Shown here in pieces: positions 1-37,039 of a stretch of 64,000 nucleotides of DNA (position 1 is the first letter of the stretch; each line of letters opens with the position of its first letter). Source of the DNA: Acidobacteriaceae bacterium (GTDB lineage: Bacteria; Acidobacteriota; Terriglobia; Terriglobales; Acidobacteriaceae). A program made the translations under genes and the position numbers. The notes under the pieces are model-generated. The model was not told where the DNA came from. It saw only the letters and a program-made list of their open reading frames with translations, and searched no databases. Where the stretch lies: assembly GCA_030041435.1 (NCBI GenBank), contig JASHNW010000007.1, positions 1 to 64,000 of the forward strand. Direction: 5' to 3'.

Positions 1-188
1 TGCTGTTCGACCGCGGCGACGAGATCCAGGTGCAGGCGGGGCCGGAGGGGATTCGCTTCCTGCTGGTGAGCGGGCAGCCGATCGAGGAGCCGGTGGCGTG
101 GCATGGTCCCATCGTCATGAACACGCAGCAGGAGCTGCGCCAGGCGATGGCGGAGTTGCAGAACGGCAACTTTATTCGGCATCGGTGA
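1..188 (+). CDS. Pirin family protein, C-terminal fragment
   Basis: The reading frame enters the window at base 3 and stops at TGA 186-188, giving the last 62 residues. The stretch GQPIEEPVAWHGPIVMN followed by a short amphipathic end (TQQELRQAMAELQNG, FIRHR) is the typical end of the second cupin of pirin-family proteins. Pirins are bicupin, iron-containing proteins; several act as quercetin dioxygenases or redox-sensitive cofactors, and the exact role cannot be told from the fragment. The start and both metal-binding cupin motifs lie outside the window. The heptad repeat array begins 5 bases after the stop codon. Confidence 0.85.
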   Translation, partial: LFDRGDEIQVQAGPEGIRFLLVSGQPIEEPVAWHGPIVMNTQQELRQAMAELQNGNFIRHR

Positions 189-192
189 AGCG

Positions 193-437
193 AGCGGACA
201 GCGGACAGCGGACAGCGGACAGCGGACAGCGGATAGCAGACGGCAGAGAGCGGACGGCGGATAGCGGACAGCGAAAGGCGTGGAGCGGACAGCGGGTAGC
301 AGACGGCAGAGAGCAGACAGCAGAGAGCAGACGGCAGAGAGCAGACGGCAGACAGCAGACGGCAGACAGCAGACGGCAGACAGCGGGTAGCGAAAGGCGT
401 TGGGCGATCAGCTGTCAGCTCTCAGCTCTCAGAGGTC
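193..437 (+). repeat. Heptanucleotide tandem array, locus A (35 units)
   Basis: From base 193 the sequence divides into 35 consecutive 7-base units with no insertion or deletion. It begins with five AGCGGAC, passes through AGCAGAC / GGCAGAC / GGCAGAG variants and ends with AGCTGTC, AGCTCTC, AGCTCTC, AGAGGTC. A longer motif recurs inside it: AGCGAAA followed by GGCGTKG occurs at 270-283 and 389-402. Because 7 is not a multiple of 3, all three forward frames read the same units in turn. The array fills the gap between the pirin and brnT genes and stops just before the BlaI-like boxes. No spacers are present, so it is not a CRISPR. Confidence 0.95.
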
Positions 438-448
438 AGAAAACAGCC

Positions 449-470
449 TACATTTGTAGTTACAAACGTA
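449..470. promoter_or_regulatory. Paired BlaI/MecI-like operator boxes upstream of brnT
   Basis: Two dyads lie side by side: TACATTTGTA at 449-458 (within CTACA-TT-TGTAG) and TACAAACGTA at 461-470, with centres 12 bp apart. TACA/TGTA dyads are the known recognition form of BlaI/MecI-type winged-helix repressors, which are numerous in Acidobacteriota. A TAGACT at 472-477 could be the -10, with the first box on the -35 position; transcription would then start close to the GTG codon at 483. No blaI gene is in the window, and BrnA itself could be the regulator instead. This is prediction from sequence only. Confidence 0.5.
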
Positions 471-482
471 GTAGACTGATGT

Positions 483-758
483 GTGGAATTCGAATGGGAT
501 TCCGGGAAAGCGGACGCCAACGAGCGGAAGCACGGAATCTCATTCCCATTTGCGACGCGGGTCTTTCTGGATGAGCGCCGGCTGGAGCGGGCCGACGAGA
601 CTGCCTCGGAGAAGTTTGGCGAGGAGCGATGGATTACGGTAGGACTCGTGGATGAGTTTGAACTTGTCGTTGTGTACACGCTGCGCGGAGAGATTGTTCG
701 GGTGATTTCCGCAAGAAAGGCGGACCGCTATGAGAGAGAAGCGTACTGGAACGGTTAG
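483..758 (+). CDS. brnT: BrnT family toxin (type II toxin-antitoxin)
   Basis: This 91-residue protein has the BrnT signature: an N-terminal FEWDSGKADANERKHGISF stretch (family pattern F-x-W-D-x-x-K-x-x-x-N-x-x-KHG-V/I-S-F), then GEERWITVG, VVVYTLRGE and a basic VRVISARKADRYERE end. BrnT proteins are RelE-fold ribonucleases that inhibit translation and are neutralised by BrnA. The start is GTG at 483. There is no clear Shine-Dalgarno sequence, so a leaderless transcript from the promoter inside the BlaI-like boxes is possible. The gene overlaps brnA by 29 bases, the usual arrangement for this pair. Length is normal for the family, so it is probably intact. Confidence 0.93.
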   Translation: MEFEWDSGKADANERKHGISFPFATRVFLDERRLERADETASEKFGEERWITVGLVDEFELVVVYTLRGEIVRVISARKADRYEREAYWNG

Positions 759-1032
759 GTTCGAACTGGATCGCGCTGCGCTGCCGAAGCTGACCGAGAA
801 GCAGGCGGCGGATTTGCGGGCGAGGAAGGTGGACACCAGCGACATTCCTTCGCAGGCGGGCGTCGAATGGACGCGGCCGGGGGCGCTTGTCTCCGCGGAG
901 AACAAGCAGCAGGTGACATTGCGGCTGGACCGCGAGGTGCTGACATTTTTCAGGAGCACGGGGAGGCGCTACCAGAGCCGGATCAATGCGGTGCTCCGGG
1001 AATATGTGAAGGCCAATCGCAGATCTGGCTGA
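730..1032 (+). CDS. brnA: BrnA family antitoxin
   Basis: This 100-residue protein starts at ATG 730 inside the end of brnT. The C-terminal half matches the BrnA ribbon-helix-helix region: KQQVTLRLDREVLTFFRS, then RRYQSRINAVLREYV. The N-terminal half (AADLRARKVDTSDIP) is the segment expected to contact the toxin. In characterised pairs BrnA dimers bind both BrnT and the operon promoter, so self-regulation is likely. Nothing suggests damage. It is the last gene of the module, and korA follows about 150 bases later with its own promoter-like sequence. Confidence 0.92.
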   Translation: MREKRTGTVRFELDRAALPKLTEKQAADLRARKVDTSDIPSQAGVEWTRPGALVSAENKQQVTLRLDREVLTFFRSTGRRYQSRINAVLREYVKANRRSG

Positions 1033-1124
1033 AGGCTGGTCTTCGGGAGTCTGGCTGAATTCTCTCGTACTTGTAAAGATTCCCATGGTGTTGAGGGATG
1101 GGGATATTGGCGGGTTGGCGTCGT

Positions 1125-1130
1125 TATAAT
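1125..1130 (+). promoter_or_regulatory. Candidate -10 box (TATAAT) for korAB
   Basis: A perfect TATAAT lies 51 bases before the korA ATG, followed by a purine-rich leader. No convincing -35 hexamer lies 16-18 bases upstream (1102-1107 reads GGATAT), so strength and sigma factor are uncertain. The ribosome binding site AAGGGA lies about 7 bases before the korA start. Confidence 0.5.
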
Positions 1131-1181
1131 AAGGAGAGAGAAAGAGACGAGTTCTTTCCACTCTCGAACTGAAGGGAACAC

Positions 1182-3065
1182 ATGGCGACGACCAACGCCG
1201 GCGCCCCGTCTGCACCGGCCCCCGCAGGGGACCCCGCGGCCCAGGGTGAGGCAACAGCAGGCCCAGCAACTCCTCCCAAGCCAGTCATCAACGACTTCTC
1301 GATCCAGGTAGCGACCGTGAACGGATCCGGTTCGCAGAGCGCGAACAGCGTGCTGCTGCGCAGCATCTTCGCCATGGGCGTGCCGGTGAGCGGCAAAAAC
1401 CTGTTCCCGTCGAACATTGCGGGGCTGCCGACGTGGTACACGATCCGCGCCAGCAGGCACGGGTATGTGGCGCGCAAGAAGGACATCGACGTCCTGATTG
1501 CGATGAACGCGGAGACGGCGCGCGAGGACATTCTGTCGCTGCGGCCGGGCGCGGTGGCGATTTACGAGGAGAGCGCGAACCTGAAGCAGTATCGCGACGA
1601 TGTGGTGTGCTATCCGGTGCCGTTCGACAAGCTGACCGCGGCGGTTTGCCCGGAGGCAAAGCTGCGCAAGCTGGTAAAGAACATGATCTATGTGGGCGTG
1701 GCGGCGCAGCTGCTGCACATGGACATGGAGGCGGTGGAAGGCGCGCTGCGCAAGCAGTTCGCGAAGAAACAGAAGGCCGCCGATTTGAACTGGGCGGCGG
1801 TGGAAGCGGGCTACAACTACGCGGCGCAGACGCTGACGAAGGCCGATCCGTTCCTGGTGGAGCGGATGCATGCGACGGAAGGGAAGATCATCATCGACGG
1901 AAACGCGGCGTGCGCGCTGGGCGCGATGTTCGCGGGGGTGACGGTGGTGACGTGGTATCCGATCACGCCGTCGTCGTCGGTGGTGGAGCAGCTGATCGAT
2001 TTTCTGAAGAAGTACCGCGTGGAGCCGGACGGCAAGGCGAGCTTCGCGGTGGTGCAGGCGGAAGACGAGCTGGCGGCGATCGGGATGGTGCTGGGCGCAG
2101 GCTGGGCGGGTGCGCGGTCGATGACGGCGACGTCGGGGCCGGGGATTTCGCTGATGGCGGAGTTTGCCGGGCTGGGGTATTTTGCCGAGCTGCCGGGGGT
2201 GATTTTCGACATCCAGCGCGTGGGGCCGTCGACGGGGTTGCCGACGCGGACGGCGCAGGCGGATTTGCTGTCGGTGGCGTTCCTTTCGCATGGCGATACG
2301 AAGCATCCGGTGCTGCTGCCGGCGAACGTGACGGAGTGCTTCGAGTTTGCCTGCGCGGCGTTCGATCTGGCGGAGGGGCTGCAGACGCCGGTGTTCGTGC
2401 TGAGCGATCTGGATCTGGGGATGAATAACTGGATGTCGGATCCGTTCGCGTATCCGGAGAAGCCGATCAACCGCGGCAAGGTGCTGACGGCGGAGGATCT
2501 GGCGAAGCTGCCGGATTGGGGCCGGTATAAGGATGTGGACGGCGACGGGATTCCGTACCGGACGCTGCCAGGGACGGATCATCCGAAGGCGGCGTACTTT
2601 ACGCGCGGCAGCGGACACAACGAGAAGGCGCTGTATTCGGAACGGCCGGAGGACTACCAGAATCTGATGGAGCGGCTGGCGCGGAAGTTTGACACCGCGC
2701 GCACGATGGTTCCGGCGCCGCTGGTGGTGCAGACGGGGAAGTCGAAGGTCGGCGTGATTGCGTACGGGACGTCGGACTTCGCGGTGGGCGAGAGCCGGGA
2801 TCAGCTGAAGAAGGAATACGGGCTGGAGGCGGATTACCTGAGGATTCGGGCGTATCCGTTTGCCAGGGAGATTCGGGAATTTGTGGCGTCGCACGAGCGC
2901 GTGTACGTGGTGGAGCAGAACCGCGACGCGCAGATGCTGAGCCTGCTGAAGCTGGATCTGCCCGCCGGCGAGACGACGAAGCTGCGCAGCGTGCGGCACT
3001 TTAACGGGCTGCCGATCGACGCACGCTCGGTGACGGACGAAATCGTGATGCAGGAAGGGCTGTAG
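1182..3065 (+). CDS. korA: 2-oxoacid:ferredoxin oxidoreductase, fused gamma-alpha subunit
   Basis: This 627-residue protein pairs with korB to oxidise a 2-oxoacid, most likely 2-oxoglutarate, to its acyl-CoA with ferredoxin as electron acceptor. The first 35 residues are a Pro/Ala-rich leader. Residues about 40-215 are the gamma domain (TVNGSGSQSANSVLLRSIF, MGVPVSGKNLFPSNI). Residues from about 245 are the alpha (pyrimidine-binding) domain with the hallmark TWYPITPSSSVVEQL and ATSGPGISLMAEFAGL. The fusion is standard for the two-subunit Kor type. The gene is followed by a heptad array and then korB, 94 bases away on the same strand. Substrate (2-oxoglutarate versus another 2-oxoacid) is inferred from family resemblance. 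Confidence 0.93.
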   Translation: MATTNAGAPSAPAPAGDPAAQGEATAGPATPPKPVINDFSIQVATVNGSGSQSANSVLLRSIFAMGVPVSGKNLFPSNIAGLPTWYTIRASRHGYVARKKDIDVLIAMNAETAREDILSLRPGAVAIYEESANLKQYRDDVVCYPVPFDKLTAAVCPEAKLRKLVKNMIYVGVAAQLLHMDMEAVEGALRKQFAKKQKAADLNWAAVEAGYNYAAQTLTKADPFLVERMHATEGKIIIDGNAACALGAMFAGVTVVTWYPITPSSSVVEQLIDFLKKYRVEPDGKASFAVVQAEDELAAIGMVLGAGWAGARSMTATSGPGISLMAEFAGLGYFAELPGVIFDIQRVGPSTGLPTRTAQADLLSVAFLSHGDTKHPVLLPANVTECFEFACAAFDLAEGLQTPVFVLSDLDLGMNNWMSDPFAYPEKPINRGKVLTAEDLAKLPDWGRYKDVDGDGIPYRTLPGTDHPKAAYFTRGSGHNEKALYSERPEDYQNLMERLARKFDTARTMVPAPLVVQTGKSKVGVIAYGTSDFAVGESRDQLKKEYGLEADYLRIRAYPFAREIREFVASHERVYVVEQNRDAQMLSLLKLDLPAGETTKLRSVRHFNGLPIDARSVTDEIVMQEGL

Positions 3066-3072
3066 CGGGCGC

Positions 3073-3135
3073 AGTCAGCAGACAGCGGTCAGCGGTCAGC
3101 CCGGAAGCAGACAGCGGTTAGCAGACGGCGGGCAG
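3073..3135 (+). repeat. Heptanucleotide array, locus B (inside the korA-korB operon)
   Basis: After AGTC the units run AGCAGAC, AGCGGTC, AGCGGTC, AGCCCGG; one extra A shifts the register, then AGCAGAC, AGCGGTT, AGCAGAC, GGCGGGC. The array fills most of the 94-base gap between the two kor genes and so lies in their presumed common transcript. The korB ribosome binding site AGGAGA follows it. Confidence 0.9.
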
Positions 3136-3159
3136 AGATTTTCAGGAGAGATTGAAATC

Positions 3160-4203
3160 ATGGCGGCAACAGTTACAAATCCAGGACCGAAGGTGAACCG
3201 CATCGGGCTGCCGGTGCTCGAGTACCGCGGCGGCAAGACGACGCTGTGCGCGGGCTGCGGGCACAACGCGATTTCGGAGCGCATTATCGACGCGATGTTC
3301 GAGATGGGCGTGCAGCCGGAGCGGGTGATGAAGCTGTCGGGGATCGGCTGCTCGTCGAAGAGCCCGGCGTACTTTCTGTCGCGCTCGCACAGCTTTAACA
3401 GCGTGCACGGACGCATGCCGTCGGTGGCGACGGGCGCACTGCTGGCCAATCACACGATGATGGGGATTGGAATTTCGGGCGACGGCGACACGGCGTCGAT
3501 CGGAATGGGGCAGTTCGCACACCTGATGCGGCGCAATCTGCCGCTGATCTACATCATCGAAGACAACGGCGTGTATGGGCTGACGAAAGGGCAGTTTTCA
3601 GCGACGGCGGATATCGGGTCGAAGCTGAAGACGGGAGTCGTGAACGATCTGCCGGCCATCGACACGTGCTCGCTGGCGATCCAGCTGGGGGCGACGTTTG
3701 TGGGGCGGTCGTTCTCGGGCGATAAGAAGCAGCTGCTGACGATGCTGAAGGCGGCCATCGCGCACAAGGGCACGGTGATGCTGGACGTGGTTTCGCCGTG
3801 CGTGACCTTCAACGATCATGAAGGCTCGACGCGCAGCTACAAATACATGCAGGACCACGAAGAGCCGATCGGCGAAGTGGGGTTTGTGCCGGCGTTCGAA
3901 GAGATCGACGTGGAGTACGATCCGGGCACGACGCTGGACGTGACCATGCACGACGGATCGAGCCTGCGTTTGAAGAAGCTGCACGAGGACTACGATCCCA
4001 CGGATCGCGCGCACGCCGTGAAGACGCTGCTGGAAGCGCACGAGAAGGGCGAGGTGCTGACCGGGGTGTTCTACATCGACACGAAGAAGGCGGCCTTTAC
4101 CGATCTGCTGAACCTGGTGGACGATCCTCTGGCGACGCTCAAGCAGGAGCGGACGCGGCCGGGCCGGCAGGTGCTGGAGGAGATTATGGGGCGGCTGAAG
4201 TAG
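3160..4203 (+). CDS. korB: 2-oxoacid:ferredoxin oxidoreductase, beta subunit
   Basis: This 347-residue subunit binds thiamine diphosphate and one [4Fe-4S] cluster. Candidate cluster ligands are visible: TTLCAGCGHNAIS near the N-terminus, GIGCSSKSPAY, and SPCVTFNDHEGST further on. The TPP/Mg motif is GISGDGDTASIGMGQF followed by the NNGVYG-like DNGVYGLTKGQFSAT. Length and order match the short two-subunit KorB. The AGGAGA ribosome binding site is well spaced before ATG 3160. It is the last gene of the operon; a terminator-like hairpin follows within 70 bases. Ferredoxin itself is not encoded here. Confidence 0.94.
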   Translation: MAATVTNPGPKVNRIGLPVLEYRGGKTTLCAGCGHNAISERIIDAMFEMGVQPERVMKLSGIGCSSKSPAYFLSRSHSFNSVHGRMPSVATGALLANHTMMGIGISGDGDTASIGMGQFAHLMRRNLPLIYIIEDNGVYGLTKGQFSATADIGSKLKTGVVNDLPAIDTCSLAIQLGATFVGRSFSGDKKQLLTMLKAAIAHKGTVMLDVVSPCVTFNDHEGSTRSYKYMQDHEEPIGEVGFVPAFEEIDVEYDPGTTLDVTMHDGSSLRLKKLHEDYDPTDRAHAVKTLLEAHEKGEVLTGVFYIDTKKAAFTDLLNLVDDPLATLKQERTRPGRQVLEEIMGRLK

Positions 4204-4210
4204 GGAGACA

Positions 4211-4238
4211 GGGTATAGGGGTTAGGGTATAGGGTTTA
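4211..4238 (+). repeat. Heptanucleotide array, locus C (GGGTATA type)
   Basis: Four exact 7-base units: GGGTATA, GGGGTTA, GGGTATA, GGGTTTA. They sit 7 bases after the korB stop and directly before the terminator hairpin. In the shifted register they read TAGGGTA / TAGGGGT, the same heptad frame as the TAGCGGA-type arrays. Confidence 0.85.
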
Positions 4239-4239
4239 G

Positions 4240-4271
4240 AGCGCCCTGCTTGTGCGGGGCGTTCGCTTTTT
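4240..4271 (+). terminator. Rho-independent terminator after korB
   Basis: AGCGCCC (4240-4246) can pair with GGGCGTT (4257-4263, one G-U pair), with a 10-base loop, followed by CGC and five T (4267-4271). It lies after the plus-strand korAB operon and before the stop codon of the minus-strand gene at 4284. Confidence 0.7.
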
Positions 4272-4283
4272 GGCGGGATTCAT

Positions 4284-4658
4284 TCACGCGCTATAGTTTG
4301 CGACGACGCGAATGACCTGACCCTGGGCGCTGCATTCCATGAACTCGGCGGTTCTTGTTCCGCTTTGGTTGGTGTAGACCAGCACGGCGCTGGCGAGGCC
4401 GTGGAATACATCGAGCAGCTCAAAACGCAGGCCGGGATAGGCCTGGAGGCCGCGGGCGAAGTAGACTCGCAGCGCGTCGATGCCGGCGACGGTTCCGGAA
4501 GGGTCACCCAGAAGCCGGGCCGCTACCGGCGAGGTGAGCACGACGCCGGGCGCGTAATGGGCCAGGATGGCTTCGAGATCGTGCGCATTCCACGCGGCGA
4601 TCCATTCTGCGGCGAAGCGGCGGGCGTGTTGCTCGGAAATGGGCGGGATGCAGGGCAT
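4284..4658 (-). CDS. SnoaL/NTF2-like domain protein
   Basis: A 124-residue single-domain protein with the NTF2-like alpha+beta pattern: helix 1 ending RFAAEWIAAWNAHDLEAILA, then HYAPGVVLTSP, GIDALRVYFARGLQ, and strands FELLDVFHGLASAVLVYTN and QGQVIRVVANY. Members include ketosteroid-isomerase-like enzymes, polyketide cyclases and many proteins of unknown role, so no substrate is assigned. No signal peptide is seen. It is followed on the same strand in the window by doxX-like DNA at 4719-5147, which lies upstream in transcription with a 60-base gap, so the two may be co-transcribed. Confidence 0.8.
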   Translation of the reverse strand: MPCIPPISEQHARRFAAEWIAAWNAHDLEAILAHYAPGVVLTSPVAARLLGDPSGTVAGIDALRVYFARGLQAYPGLRFELLDVFHGLASAVLVYTNQSGTRTAEFMECSAQGQVIRVVANYSA

Positions 4659-4718
4659 TATTCTGCGGAGATAGCATGATTCACCACGGGCTGCTGCGCC
4701 GCGGAGGGTCAGGCGGCG

Positions 4719-5147
4719 CTACTCCTTCGCGATGGCGCGATCGACGGACATGGCGCCGCCACCTTTGAAGATGATGAGGATGGCGAGGGCCAGCAGGGCG
4801 AGAGGATACTCGTAGCCAGCGCCGTGCGGGCCGCCAAGCAGGCCGTTGTGCAGGTGGACCCTGAGGATGGCGACCATCATGTTGATGGCGATGGCGAGAG
4901 CCGCGAGGCGGCTGAGGAAGCCGGCGAGCAGCAGGATGCCGCCGAGGAACTCCGCCAGGATGGCGCAGACGGCGAAGAAAGCGGGAATGTGCATGCCGGC
5001 GGTGAACATCTGCATGGTGCCATGCCAGCCGGGGCCCTGCCACCAGCCGAGGGCTTTTTGTGTGCCGTGGCCGAGAAAAATGAATCCGAGGATGAGGCGC
5101 ATCAGGGCGAGGACTTTGTCATCGGAGGAACGCAGGAAGCTTTTCAC
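4719..5147 (-). CDS. DoxX family membrane protein
   Basis: A 142-residue protein with four predicted membrane helices: residues about 13-30 (LMRLILGFIFLGHGTQK), about 55-75 (AFFAVCAILAEFLGGILLL), about 80-95 and about 113-130. The LGHGTQKALGW and AEFLGGILLLAGFLSR motifs are typical of DoxX/YphA-like proteins. Relatives occur in thiosulfate:quinone oxidoreductase and in redox stress complexes, but most are uncharacterised. The start is GTG at 5147 with GGGAGAAG upstream. It may form a two-gene unit with the NTF2-like gene downstream. Confidence 0.85.
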   Translation of the reverse strand: MKSFLRSSDDKVLALMRLILGFIFLGHGTQKALGWWQGPGWHGTMQMFTAGMHIPAFFAVCAILAEFLGGILLLAGFLSRLAALAIAINMMVAILRVHLHNGLLGGPHGAGYEYPLALLALAILIIFKGGGAMSVDRAIAKE

Positions 5148-9337: not shown

Positions 9338-9379
9338 CAGGGTGCAGGGTGTAGCGTGTAGCGTATAGCGTTTAGGGTA
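9338..9379 (+). repeat. Heptanucleotide array, locus D (TAGCGTA type)
   Basis: Six units in register: CAGGGTG, CAGGGTG, TAGCGTG, TAGCGTA, TAGCGTT, TAGGGTA, then CAGG. This locus joins the GGGTATA and AGCGGAC types, because TAGCGTA and TAGGGTA alternate in the same register. It lies in the divergent gap between cutA and the phosphohexomutase gene. Confidence 0.85.
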
Positions 9380-9440
9380 CAGGTGGAGTGCTGCGGGGTG
9401 TGCAGACGGCATCTTACGAAAAAAGTATACGAGGGAAAGC

Positions 9441-10843: not shown

Positions 10844-10892
10844 GGGGATAGGGTGTAGGGGATAGGGTGTAGGGATGCAGCCAGCAGTTAGC
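10844..10892 (+). repeat. Heptanucleotide array, locus E (GGGTGTA passing to AGCGGA type)
   Basis: Units GGGGATA, GGGTGTA, GGGGATA, GGGTGTA, GGGATGC are followed in the same register by AGCCAGC, AGTTAGC. One array therefore changes from the GGGTGTA type to the AGCGGA type, which supports a common origin. It runs up to the first possible ATG of the ftsB-like gene. Confidence 0.85.
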
Positions 10893-17627: not shown

Positions 17628-17722
17628 GGTCAGCAGACAGCGGGGAGCGGACACCAGCCTGCTGCTTGCCGCTGACTGCCAACCGCTAACCGCTAACCGC
17701 TAACCGCTAACCGCTGCCTGCT
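17628..17722. repeat. Heptanucleotide array, locus F (both orientations)
   Basis: Forward units GGTCAGC, AGACAGC, GGGGAGC, GGACACC (17628-17655) are followed by the same repeat on the other strand. Plus-strand CCGCTAA repeated four times at about 17690-17717 equals AGCGGTT units on the minus strand, preceded by GCTGACTGCCAA. The two halves can pair as a loose hairpin. The array occupies the divergent gap between the kinase gene and ribA and ends just before the ribA -10 box. Confidence 0.85.
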
Positions 17723-26547: not shown

Positions 26548-26570
26548 GCGAGCGACCTCCGGCCGCTCGC

Positions 26571-26605
26571 AGCGGTCAGCAGACAGCGATCAGCGTTCAG
26601 CCAAA
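26571..26605 (+). repeat. Heptanucleotide array, locus G
   Basis: Units AGCGGTC, AGCAGAC, AGCGATC, AGCGTTC, AGCCAAA in perfect register. It lies in the short gap between the pyrD start and the stop of the upstream gene, both on the minus strand. The G-rich strand of the array is still the plus strand. Confidence 0.85.
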
Positions 26606-35691: not shown

Positions 35692-35693
<2 letters not shown>

Positions 35694-35776
35694 CGTTCGG
35701 CGGTTAGCAGTCAGCAGACAGCGAGTCAGCGCCTGCGGAGCAGTAGGTCAGCAAGGCAGGAAGTCAGTGAGTCAGG
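35692..35776 (+). repeat. Heptanucleotide array, locus H (7-bp then 8-bp period)
   Basis: Units AGCGTTC, GGCGGTT, AGCAGTC, AGCAGAC (7 bp) are followed by AGCGAGTC, AGCGCCTG and, nearer the next gene, AGCAAGGC, AGGAAGTC, AGTGAGTC, AGGA (8 bp). The array begins at the MoxR stop codon and ends directly at the VWA start ATG 35778, so the only AGGA-type ribosome binding sequences of the VWA gene (35758-35763, 35774-35777) are array units. Confidence 0.8.
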
Positions 35777-37015: not shown

Positions 37016-37039
37016 GACAGCGGATAGCGGATAGCGATT
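37016..37039 (+). repeat. Heptanucleotide array, locus I
   Basis: AGAC then AGCGGAT, AGCGGAT, AGCGATT in register. It fills the gap between the VWA stop and the convergent lhr stop. The last unit includes two bases of the lhr stop codon (TTA on the plus strand, 37038-37040). Confidence 0.8.

Follow-up and report, generated by a model that had tools for sequence, protein, structure and literature searches.

Introduction

Tandem arrays of seven-base units are known from several groups of bacteria, and those of Cyanobacteria are named STRR. In Xanthomonas and Nostoc, according to the passages that deal with them, GGGAATC and GGGGA(C/T)T heptads are dispersed and mainly intergenic, lie nearer to the 5' neighbouring gene whatever its orientation, in many cases less than 50 bases after a stop on the coding strand, and vary in length and sequence between relatives (Rehm et al. 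2015, PMC4692102, where tandem heptanucleotide repeats of Calothrix PCC7601 are also mentioned). TAACTGA repeats, likewise mainly intergenic and dispersed, occur in marine Beggiatoaceae, Cyanobacteria and Bacteroidetes and are mixed with other heptads in some genomes, and most differences between two Cyanothece strains are reported to be "indels in 7 nt increments" (MacGregor 2015, PMC4679880). Chloroflexus aurantiacus carries 22 scattered satellites derived from one heptamer, (GATAGRA)n (PMC6749651). Among the longer simple repeats, heptamers are reported to outnumber every other class in many bacterial genomes (Mrazek et al. 2007, cited via MacGregor, PMC4679880), and slippage tied to the contact length of the polymerase has been proposed for them (Mrazek et al. 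2007, cited via MacGregor and Rehm).

Here we describe a heptad array from an Acidobacteriaceae genome, located at 193–437 of the window, by which we mean the whole stretch of 64,000 nucleotides that was analysed. This focal array belongs to the known bacterial heptanucleotide simple sequence repeats, and its head-to-tail seven-base anatomy sets it apart on sight from CRISPR, REP/BIME and MITE elements, with their spaced or palindromic organisation or terminal inverted repeats. An earlier, sequence-only reading of the window had drawn a parallel with cyanobacterial heptads and knew of no acidobacterial counterpart. The parallel is right in that the Xanthomonas/Nostoc and TAACTGA repeats share the layout of dispersed intergenic seven-base tandems, and our search of the open-access literature likewise found no description of acidobacterial heptad arrays. 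As far as that search reaches, the new elements are the description in Acidobacteriaceae, a column-specific constant core within otherwise drifting units, and a comparison of empty and filled sites inside an operon.

Like the Xanthomonas and Nostoc heptads, the arrays of this genome are dispersed intergenic seven-base tandems that lie with their 5' end by a gene and often start after stops. By comparison, the former have a GGG core, prefer four units and form G-quadruplexes, whereas the focal array has an AG(C) core and 35 units. The GGG that the G-quadruplex heptads of Rehm et al. carry in each unit occurs in the focal array only in two AGCGGGT units and at one unit junction, although GGG is present in arrays of the AGGGTAT type elsewhere in the genome. 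A further difference is that no conserved array was found here at the spacers compared. The arrays also resemble the TAACTGA repeats in being dispersed, mainly intergenic heptads; the TAACTGA repeats of BOGUAY, however, consist of one unit and stand just upstream of start codons, whereas here the units vary and the arrays often start after a stop. Neither TAACTGA nor its complement, in any rotation, is among the 15 distinct units of the focal array. The Chloroflexus aurantiacus satellites derive from a single heptamer, in contrast to the several unit families with a common core found here, and the long simple repeats of Mrazek et al. are of the same general class, a constant core going unmentioned in the cited passages on them.

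Anatomy of the heptad array

The focal array lies between a pirin gene and a predicted brnT–brnA gene pair, with the following features.

3–188, + strand: pirin C-terminal domain, truncated by the contig start (Pfam PF05726, E 3e-19)
193–440, + strand: heptad array; 35 RGC-NNNN units at 193–437, then the start of a further unit
270–283, + strand: first AGCGAAA-GGCGTGG unit pair, by sequence reading
389–402, + strand: second unit pair, AGCGAAA-GGCGTTG, by sequence reading
403–437, + strand: in-register tail of another unit family, GGCGATC AGCTGTC AGCTCTC AGCTCTC AGAGGTC, by sequence reading
483–758, + strand: predicted BrnT-type toxin gene, downstream of the array (Pfam PF04365, E 2.5e-24)
730–1032, + strand: predicted BrnA-type antitoxin gene (Pfam PF14384, E 3.3e-18)

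By their Pfam domains, brnT and brnA would form a toxin–antitoxin pair. The array starts 4 bases 3' of the pirin stop and ends 42 bases 5' of the brnT start used, and it is spanned by an ORF (98–574) whose frame differs from that of pirin. The earlier claim of 35 indel-free units is borne out: 193–437 divides into 35 seven-base units with zero indels and 15 distinct sequences, the commonest being AGCGGAC (8) and AGCAGAC (7), and the lag-7 segment 193–440 reaches a score of 117, the highest of the 68 arrays kept in a 1.06-Mb census. Shuffled intergenic DNA had been named as a comparison that might give the same pattern; 2000 base shuffles of the spacer (189–482) scored at most 13. The recurrence of an AGCGAAA-GGCGTKG unit is confirmed as well by the copies at 270–283 and 389–402, and the string AGCGAAAGGCG is present in 6 copies across both strands of the 1.06 Mb, these two pairs included. 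TRF returned 193–384 at period 7 (score 151, 2% indels) and a period of 28 (score 172, 0% indels). The tail closes the array with the unit AGAGGTC, and of 79 matches listed outside this genome, 60 start within it, at query position 203 or beyond.

Heptad arrays across the genome

The census covered eight contigs and 1,059,610 of 5,769,352 bases (C109, C110 and C4 being covered in part). These contigs were picked for a match to the focal array, so that the density may be high while the contrast between lags is unaffected; genes were called by a simple script, and pirin, brnT and brnA were added by hand. At lag 7, 71 arrays scored at least 13 and 38 of them at least 20, as against 1–3 arrays each at the lower threshold and none at the higher for ten control lags (4, 5, 8, 10, 11, 13, 16, 17, 19 and 20). 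At lag 14, itself twice seven, the counts were 56 and 27, respectively. The period-7 arrays are mostly intergenic and dispersed, 68 of the 71 overlapping called genes by at most 30%, on eight contigs. Position counts exclude arrays with more than 30% gene overlap or without a flanking gene (3 of 71; 7 in an earlier array set), and a filter for clear orientation removes a further 12 of the 68, leaving 56.

When oriented on AG, the units are mostly of the form RG[CG]NNNY and fall into the families AGCGGAY, AGCTGGG, AGGGTWT, AGAGCAC and AGCGWTC, different families being joined in register inside single arrays. Beyond this genome, matches to the focal array at E ≤ 0.001 were found in 28 of 150 genomes of the family. 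The AGCGGAY array is present in 16 stretches of viral contigs, and the AGCGGAY unit in at least 119 stretches over several phyla (assigned by record title), some of which may be coding repeats. Within the window itself, the further arrays are as follows.

3066–3159, + strand: heptad-filled PORalpha–PORbeta spacer, an array at 3071–3100 plus degenerate units; gained in this lineage, judged by the relatives compared
4210–4239, + strand: array of AGGGTAT AGGGGTT type, 6 bases 3' of the PORbeta stop (lag-7 score 13)
9338–9383, + strand: array of AGGGTGC, AGCGTGT, AGCGTAT and other units (score 25)
10844–10874, + strand: array of AGGGTGT AGGGGAT (score 12)
17631–17722, − strand: array with two inverted arms, AGCGGTT on − and AGCGGAC-like on + (score 39)
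26553–26601, + strand: array of AGCGGTC AGCAGAC AGCGATC AGCGTTC (score 14)
35693–35722, + strand: weak array of AGCAGTC AGCAGAC type (score 11)
37016–37036, + strand: short AGCGGAT array (score 12)

The inverted arms of the array at 17631–17722 could form a long hairpin. Elsewhere, contig C48 terminates within an AGCAGTT heptad array (L028, 12516–12546), a few bases after a stop codon, which suggests that such arrays break assemblies and are under-counted in drafts.

A constant core within drifting units

All 35 units of the focal array have G in column 2, and 34 of them have C in column 3, whereas columns 1 and 4–7 vary. Between neighbouring units, the GC columns change in 1 of 68 comparisons and the other five columns in 61 of 170. 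An adjacent column pair as constant as this arose in 0 of 20,000 permutations of the mismatches, a p value that overstates the case, as the permutation assumes independent mismatches and the alternating AGCAGAC GGCAGAC runs inflate columns 1 and 7. Across the genome, mismatches between neighbours amount to 19% at A, 3% at G, 13% at C and 23–38% at positions 4–7, with a phase that was chosen on AG and leans that way. A phase-blind column test, in which 40 arrays were oriented by AG, also found three adjacent columns to be over-constant (mean z 1.58, p 8e-9), the constant triplet being AGC in 12 arrays, CAG in 8, TAG in 2 and others in 18.

The same core is enriched in the consensus units of the arrays. 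In this genome, AGC is present in 54 of 71 (expected 16.5, z 10.4) and CAG/CTG in 33 of 71 (expected 18.5, z 4.2), and CTA has a z of 7.4. CAG/CTG is likewise over-represented in the sister species G005 and G006 (37 of 54, expected 16.5, z 6.6; the two share many loci, and their arrays are therefore not independent), in a modest sample of 13 arrays from genus relatives (z 2.9) and in three other genera (G017, G038 and G065; 16 of 23, expected 6.6, z 4.3). A core common to all bacteria was considered and rejected, CAG/CTG in other phyla standing at 19 of 67 (expected 16.8, z 0.7) in a set biased by its construction, with loci found by the AGCGGAY pattern and arrays with that unit then removed.

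Simple slippage followed by substitution does not explain the near-constant columns 2 and 3, nor the polarity of the arrays to gene edges described below. Something keeps the AG(C) core constant, possibly a binding or an enzyme requirement. Most likely, the (Y)AG(C) core stems from a requirement of the duplication step rather than from gene regulation; it would be the sequence on which realignment or priming takes place by a short match.

Register and likeness of units

In 19 arrays of at least eight units, identity at the four variable positions amounts to 0.70 between adjacent units and drops to 0.60 for units five or more apart (null 0.598 ± 0.012). In the focal array it is 0.68 and 0.70 at distances 1 and 2, respectively (null 0.524 ± 0.035). 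Adjacent units are thus more alike than remote ones, which argues that the units are not just kept independently by selection, and the 28-base TRF period fits the duplication of several units at once. Many of the 62 neighbour mismatches of the focal array are inherited by duplication. Indels arise at a rate of about one per ten to twenty substitutions; at that ratio a few register breaks at most are expected, and the indel-free state of the array is weaker evidence than it looks. The state holds for the focal array and not for the class as a whole: six arrays of at most 71 in the 1.06 Mb were flagged for two registers, of which four are real by reading, one is a same-phase artefact and one is ambiguous.

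The premise of the sequence-only reading, that slippage should leave length errors, does not apply to slippage by whole units, which preserves the register, as in the seven-nucleotide steps of Cyanothece. We consider it fairly likely that whole-unit self-copying explains the focal array, as one of many dispersed intergenic arrays. Whole units or small blocks of units would be duplicated or lost through replication slippage or unequal exchange, in steps of 7n, with each unit templated by its neighbours; substitutions would then diversify the units, and the strict register would persist because the steps are multiples of seven, the polymerase step itself being presumed. Between the two causes of register proposed earlier, templated growth is thus favoured, in the form of self-templating, by the fall of likeness with distance and by clean whole-unit differences of 35 and 14 bases between species, while the register can be explained without selection on spacing.

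These differences come from G005 and G006, the closest pair of the genus (89–92% identical, by measure); with one genome per species, the focal one included, all comparisons here are between species. At 14 heptad-bearing spacers, the array is present in both species at 10 and in one at 4. The 35-base difference consists of gaps of 28 and 7 in otherwise well-matching heptads, five units missing in one species, and the same alignment has a one-base indel in a degenerate unit. In a second array, the 14-base difference is two missing units, and a third shows a 7-base gap within heptads, then an 8-base gap across Ns. Most of the 14 spacers are unalignable by reading, several having different unit families. 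Whole-unit steps do occur, and array replacement is equally conspicuous. The length differences were rejected as proof of 7n steps, because only 2 of 14 are multiples of seven, the chance rate of 1 in 7 (11 of 70 non-zero differences in heptad-free spacers), and only the two alignments count. In G005, the spacer at L314 12657–12715 contains a long run of AGCGAAA/GGCGTTT-like units, which belong to the same family as the recurring AGCGAAA-GGCGTKG pair; the G006 counterpart (L322) has a short, different stretch.

Growth from one end was tried and rejected, as the 5' half is not clearly more uniform (18 positive and 12 negative of 35 arrays, p 0.08; 17 of 31 in an earlier, partly overlapping set, p 0.02), and no in-phase decayed units were detected in either array flank. 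The 5'-end position described below is supported, growth at the 5' end is not.

Sites with and without arrays in relatives

In the window, the PORalpha/PORbeta spacer is 94 bases long and consists largely of heptads that set in with the stop codon itself. Both ends of this junction were located in 10 relatives. In 7 of these it measures about −4, 2, 3, 0, −4, 8 and −4 bases, with ends extrapolated from the alignment, and in the other three 74 (heptad-like), 80 and 118; neither end was found in an eleventh relative. The PORalpha/PORbeta heptads are thus gained DNA, and such gain where relatives are empty counts in favour of self-copying. As the spacer at 3066–3159 parts genes that overlap or touch in most relatives compared, it should end any translational coupling between them, and it shows that heptad repeats can make up the DNA separating two genes which adjoin each other in relatives.

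A second site of this kind is the C73 locus, where the flank gap is 31–46 bases in four relatives against 140–149 here, including G009, the nearest relative found (87% identical over POR; 31 against 149); it is 67–131 in five others (157–221 here) and 715 in one (148 here), an eleventh having one anchor only. The C52 locus is less clear: both anchors were found in 4 of 11 loci, three of which have a smaller gap than here (214, 122 and 142 against 275, 190 and 236) and the fourth a larger one (416 against 289), and a heptad stretch of its own is present in one of them. At the C110 locus, both anchors were found in none of three relative loci. In sister species G004, another ORF stands between pirin and POR, with no DNA match to the array or to brnTA.

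Position of arrays relative to genes

Read along the AGC strand, most arrays have a gene closer to their 5' than to their 3' end. This applies to 46 of the 56 arrays with clear orientation (p 1.2e-6), and it holds within all four gene arrangements (15/19, 9/10, 11/13 and 11/14) and under a second orientation rule (43/54). The gene at the 5' side is on the same strand in 29 of the 56 and on the opposite strand in 27, so the polarity does not look like a signal of the gene strand. In other genomes it recurs in 40 of 53 arrays (p 1.3e-4), carried by arrays after a same-strand stop (22/24); among those antisense to the 5' gene, the 5' end is nearer in 18 of 29. It is absent in a mixed genus group (1 of 3 clear), in G038 (3 of 6) and in an earlier set of relatives (4 of 8 clear).

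Arrays after a same-strand gene start near its stop, with medians of 4 and −2 bases. The stops beside arrays are TAG in 13 of 20 cases, compared with 229 of 791 overall (p 0.0008), and in 9 of these 13, by reading, the TAG belongs to the first heptad and keeps its register. Arrays have probably reached into gene ends and supplied new stops, which would explain part of the closeness to stops, although not the pattern at divergent genes.

Alternative explanations

The main rival to self-copying is a DNA- or RNA-binding protein that would contact AG(C) every seven bases, selection keeping the core and the spacing while four positions drift. The invariant G and near-invariant C of the focal units, the low mismatch at these positions genome-wide in a phase set on AG, the over-constant columns in the phase-blind test and the enrichment of CAG in array units from further genera within the family and the order all speak for such contacts. 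Yet the three spacers of this genome for which relatives allowed a comparison gave no orthologous array, G005 and G006 differ in unit families, arrays show no preference for a gene strand (29 versus 27), register breaks exist in other arrays, and the likeness of neighbours shows duplication at work, whatever else is; we regard a binding protein as unlikely. The array could alternatively be a 3'-end RNA element, providing a post-stop structure or a stop or termination signal in the pirin or brnTA transcript. Here the closeness of same-strand arrays to stops and the excess of TAG are to the point, and the + strand of the focal array folds better than 200 shuffles (z −3.1) while the − strand does not (z 0.44). 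However, 27 of the 56 arrays with clear orientation run antisense to their 5' gene, the TAG standing as first heptad is probably supplied by the array, the single terminator-like hairpin in 150–760 lies outside the array, and Rfam gave zero matches within 1–5000, all of which leaves an RNA element improbable. The stretch 150–760 also showed no promoter-like site.

We give an equally small chance to arrays that were moved rather than grown in place, either carried along by a cassette (brnTA, for example) or converted from heptad arrays at other loci. The other ORF of G004 and its want of any match to the array or brnTA, the spacers with different unit families in G005 and G006, and the in-register joining of families within single arrays would suit such transfer; the PORalpha/PORbeta spacer, on the other hand, lacks cassette genes, being made up entirely of heptad-like DNA and, ahead of the start codon, a short further stretch, and neighbour likeness points to local copying. 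Self-copying remains the reading we prefer, and the array is probably self-copied and devoid of a dedicated function.

Possible basis and significance of the core

A more specific proposal, which we rate as a very long shot, is that an intrinsic or dedicated copying process reads the YAG core and that arrays lengthen in seven-base steps through recurrent priming or realignment. Only core-keeping units would then multiply while the other four bases drift, because copying would occur at YAG sites. The complement of YAG is CTG or CTA, which provides a link to priming: these are the primer start trinucleotides given for DnaG primases of Gammaproteobacteria and Firmicutes in the passage cited (PMC5204125). 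The primase reading is speculation, as the trinucleotides come from other bacteria and may not be those of the acidobacterial primase. If it were true, the core would be a replicator-level constraint, the arrays would record priming on the lagging strand, and the strict register of the varied units would be accounted for.

For the seven-base length of bacterial heptad units, slippage over the polymerase footprint is so far a proposal. Units with a constant core and a drifting rest, operon sites both empty and filled, and sister species whose arrays differ in the same spacers make this genome useful as a test case, in which a need of the copying process could be told apart from selection on function.

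Surroundings of the focal array

Bases 1–171 of the contig, the 3' part of pirin, are identical to the end of contig C50 (L027) and the start of C48 (L028), and these two contigs share 96% identity with one another across roughly 1 kb. Either a duplicated pirin gene or an assembly branch accounts for this, so the DNA upstream of the window is uncertain. Between the array and brnT, an imperfect palindrome, CTACATTTGTAGTTACAAACGTAG, is located at 448–471 and is possibly the operator of the toxin–antitoxin operon.
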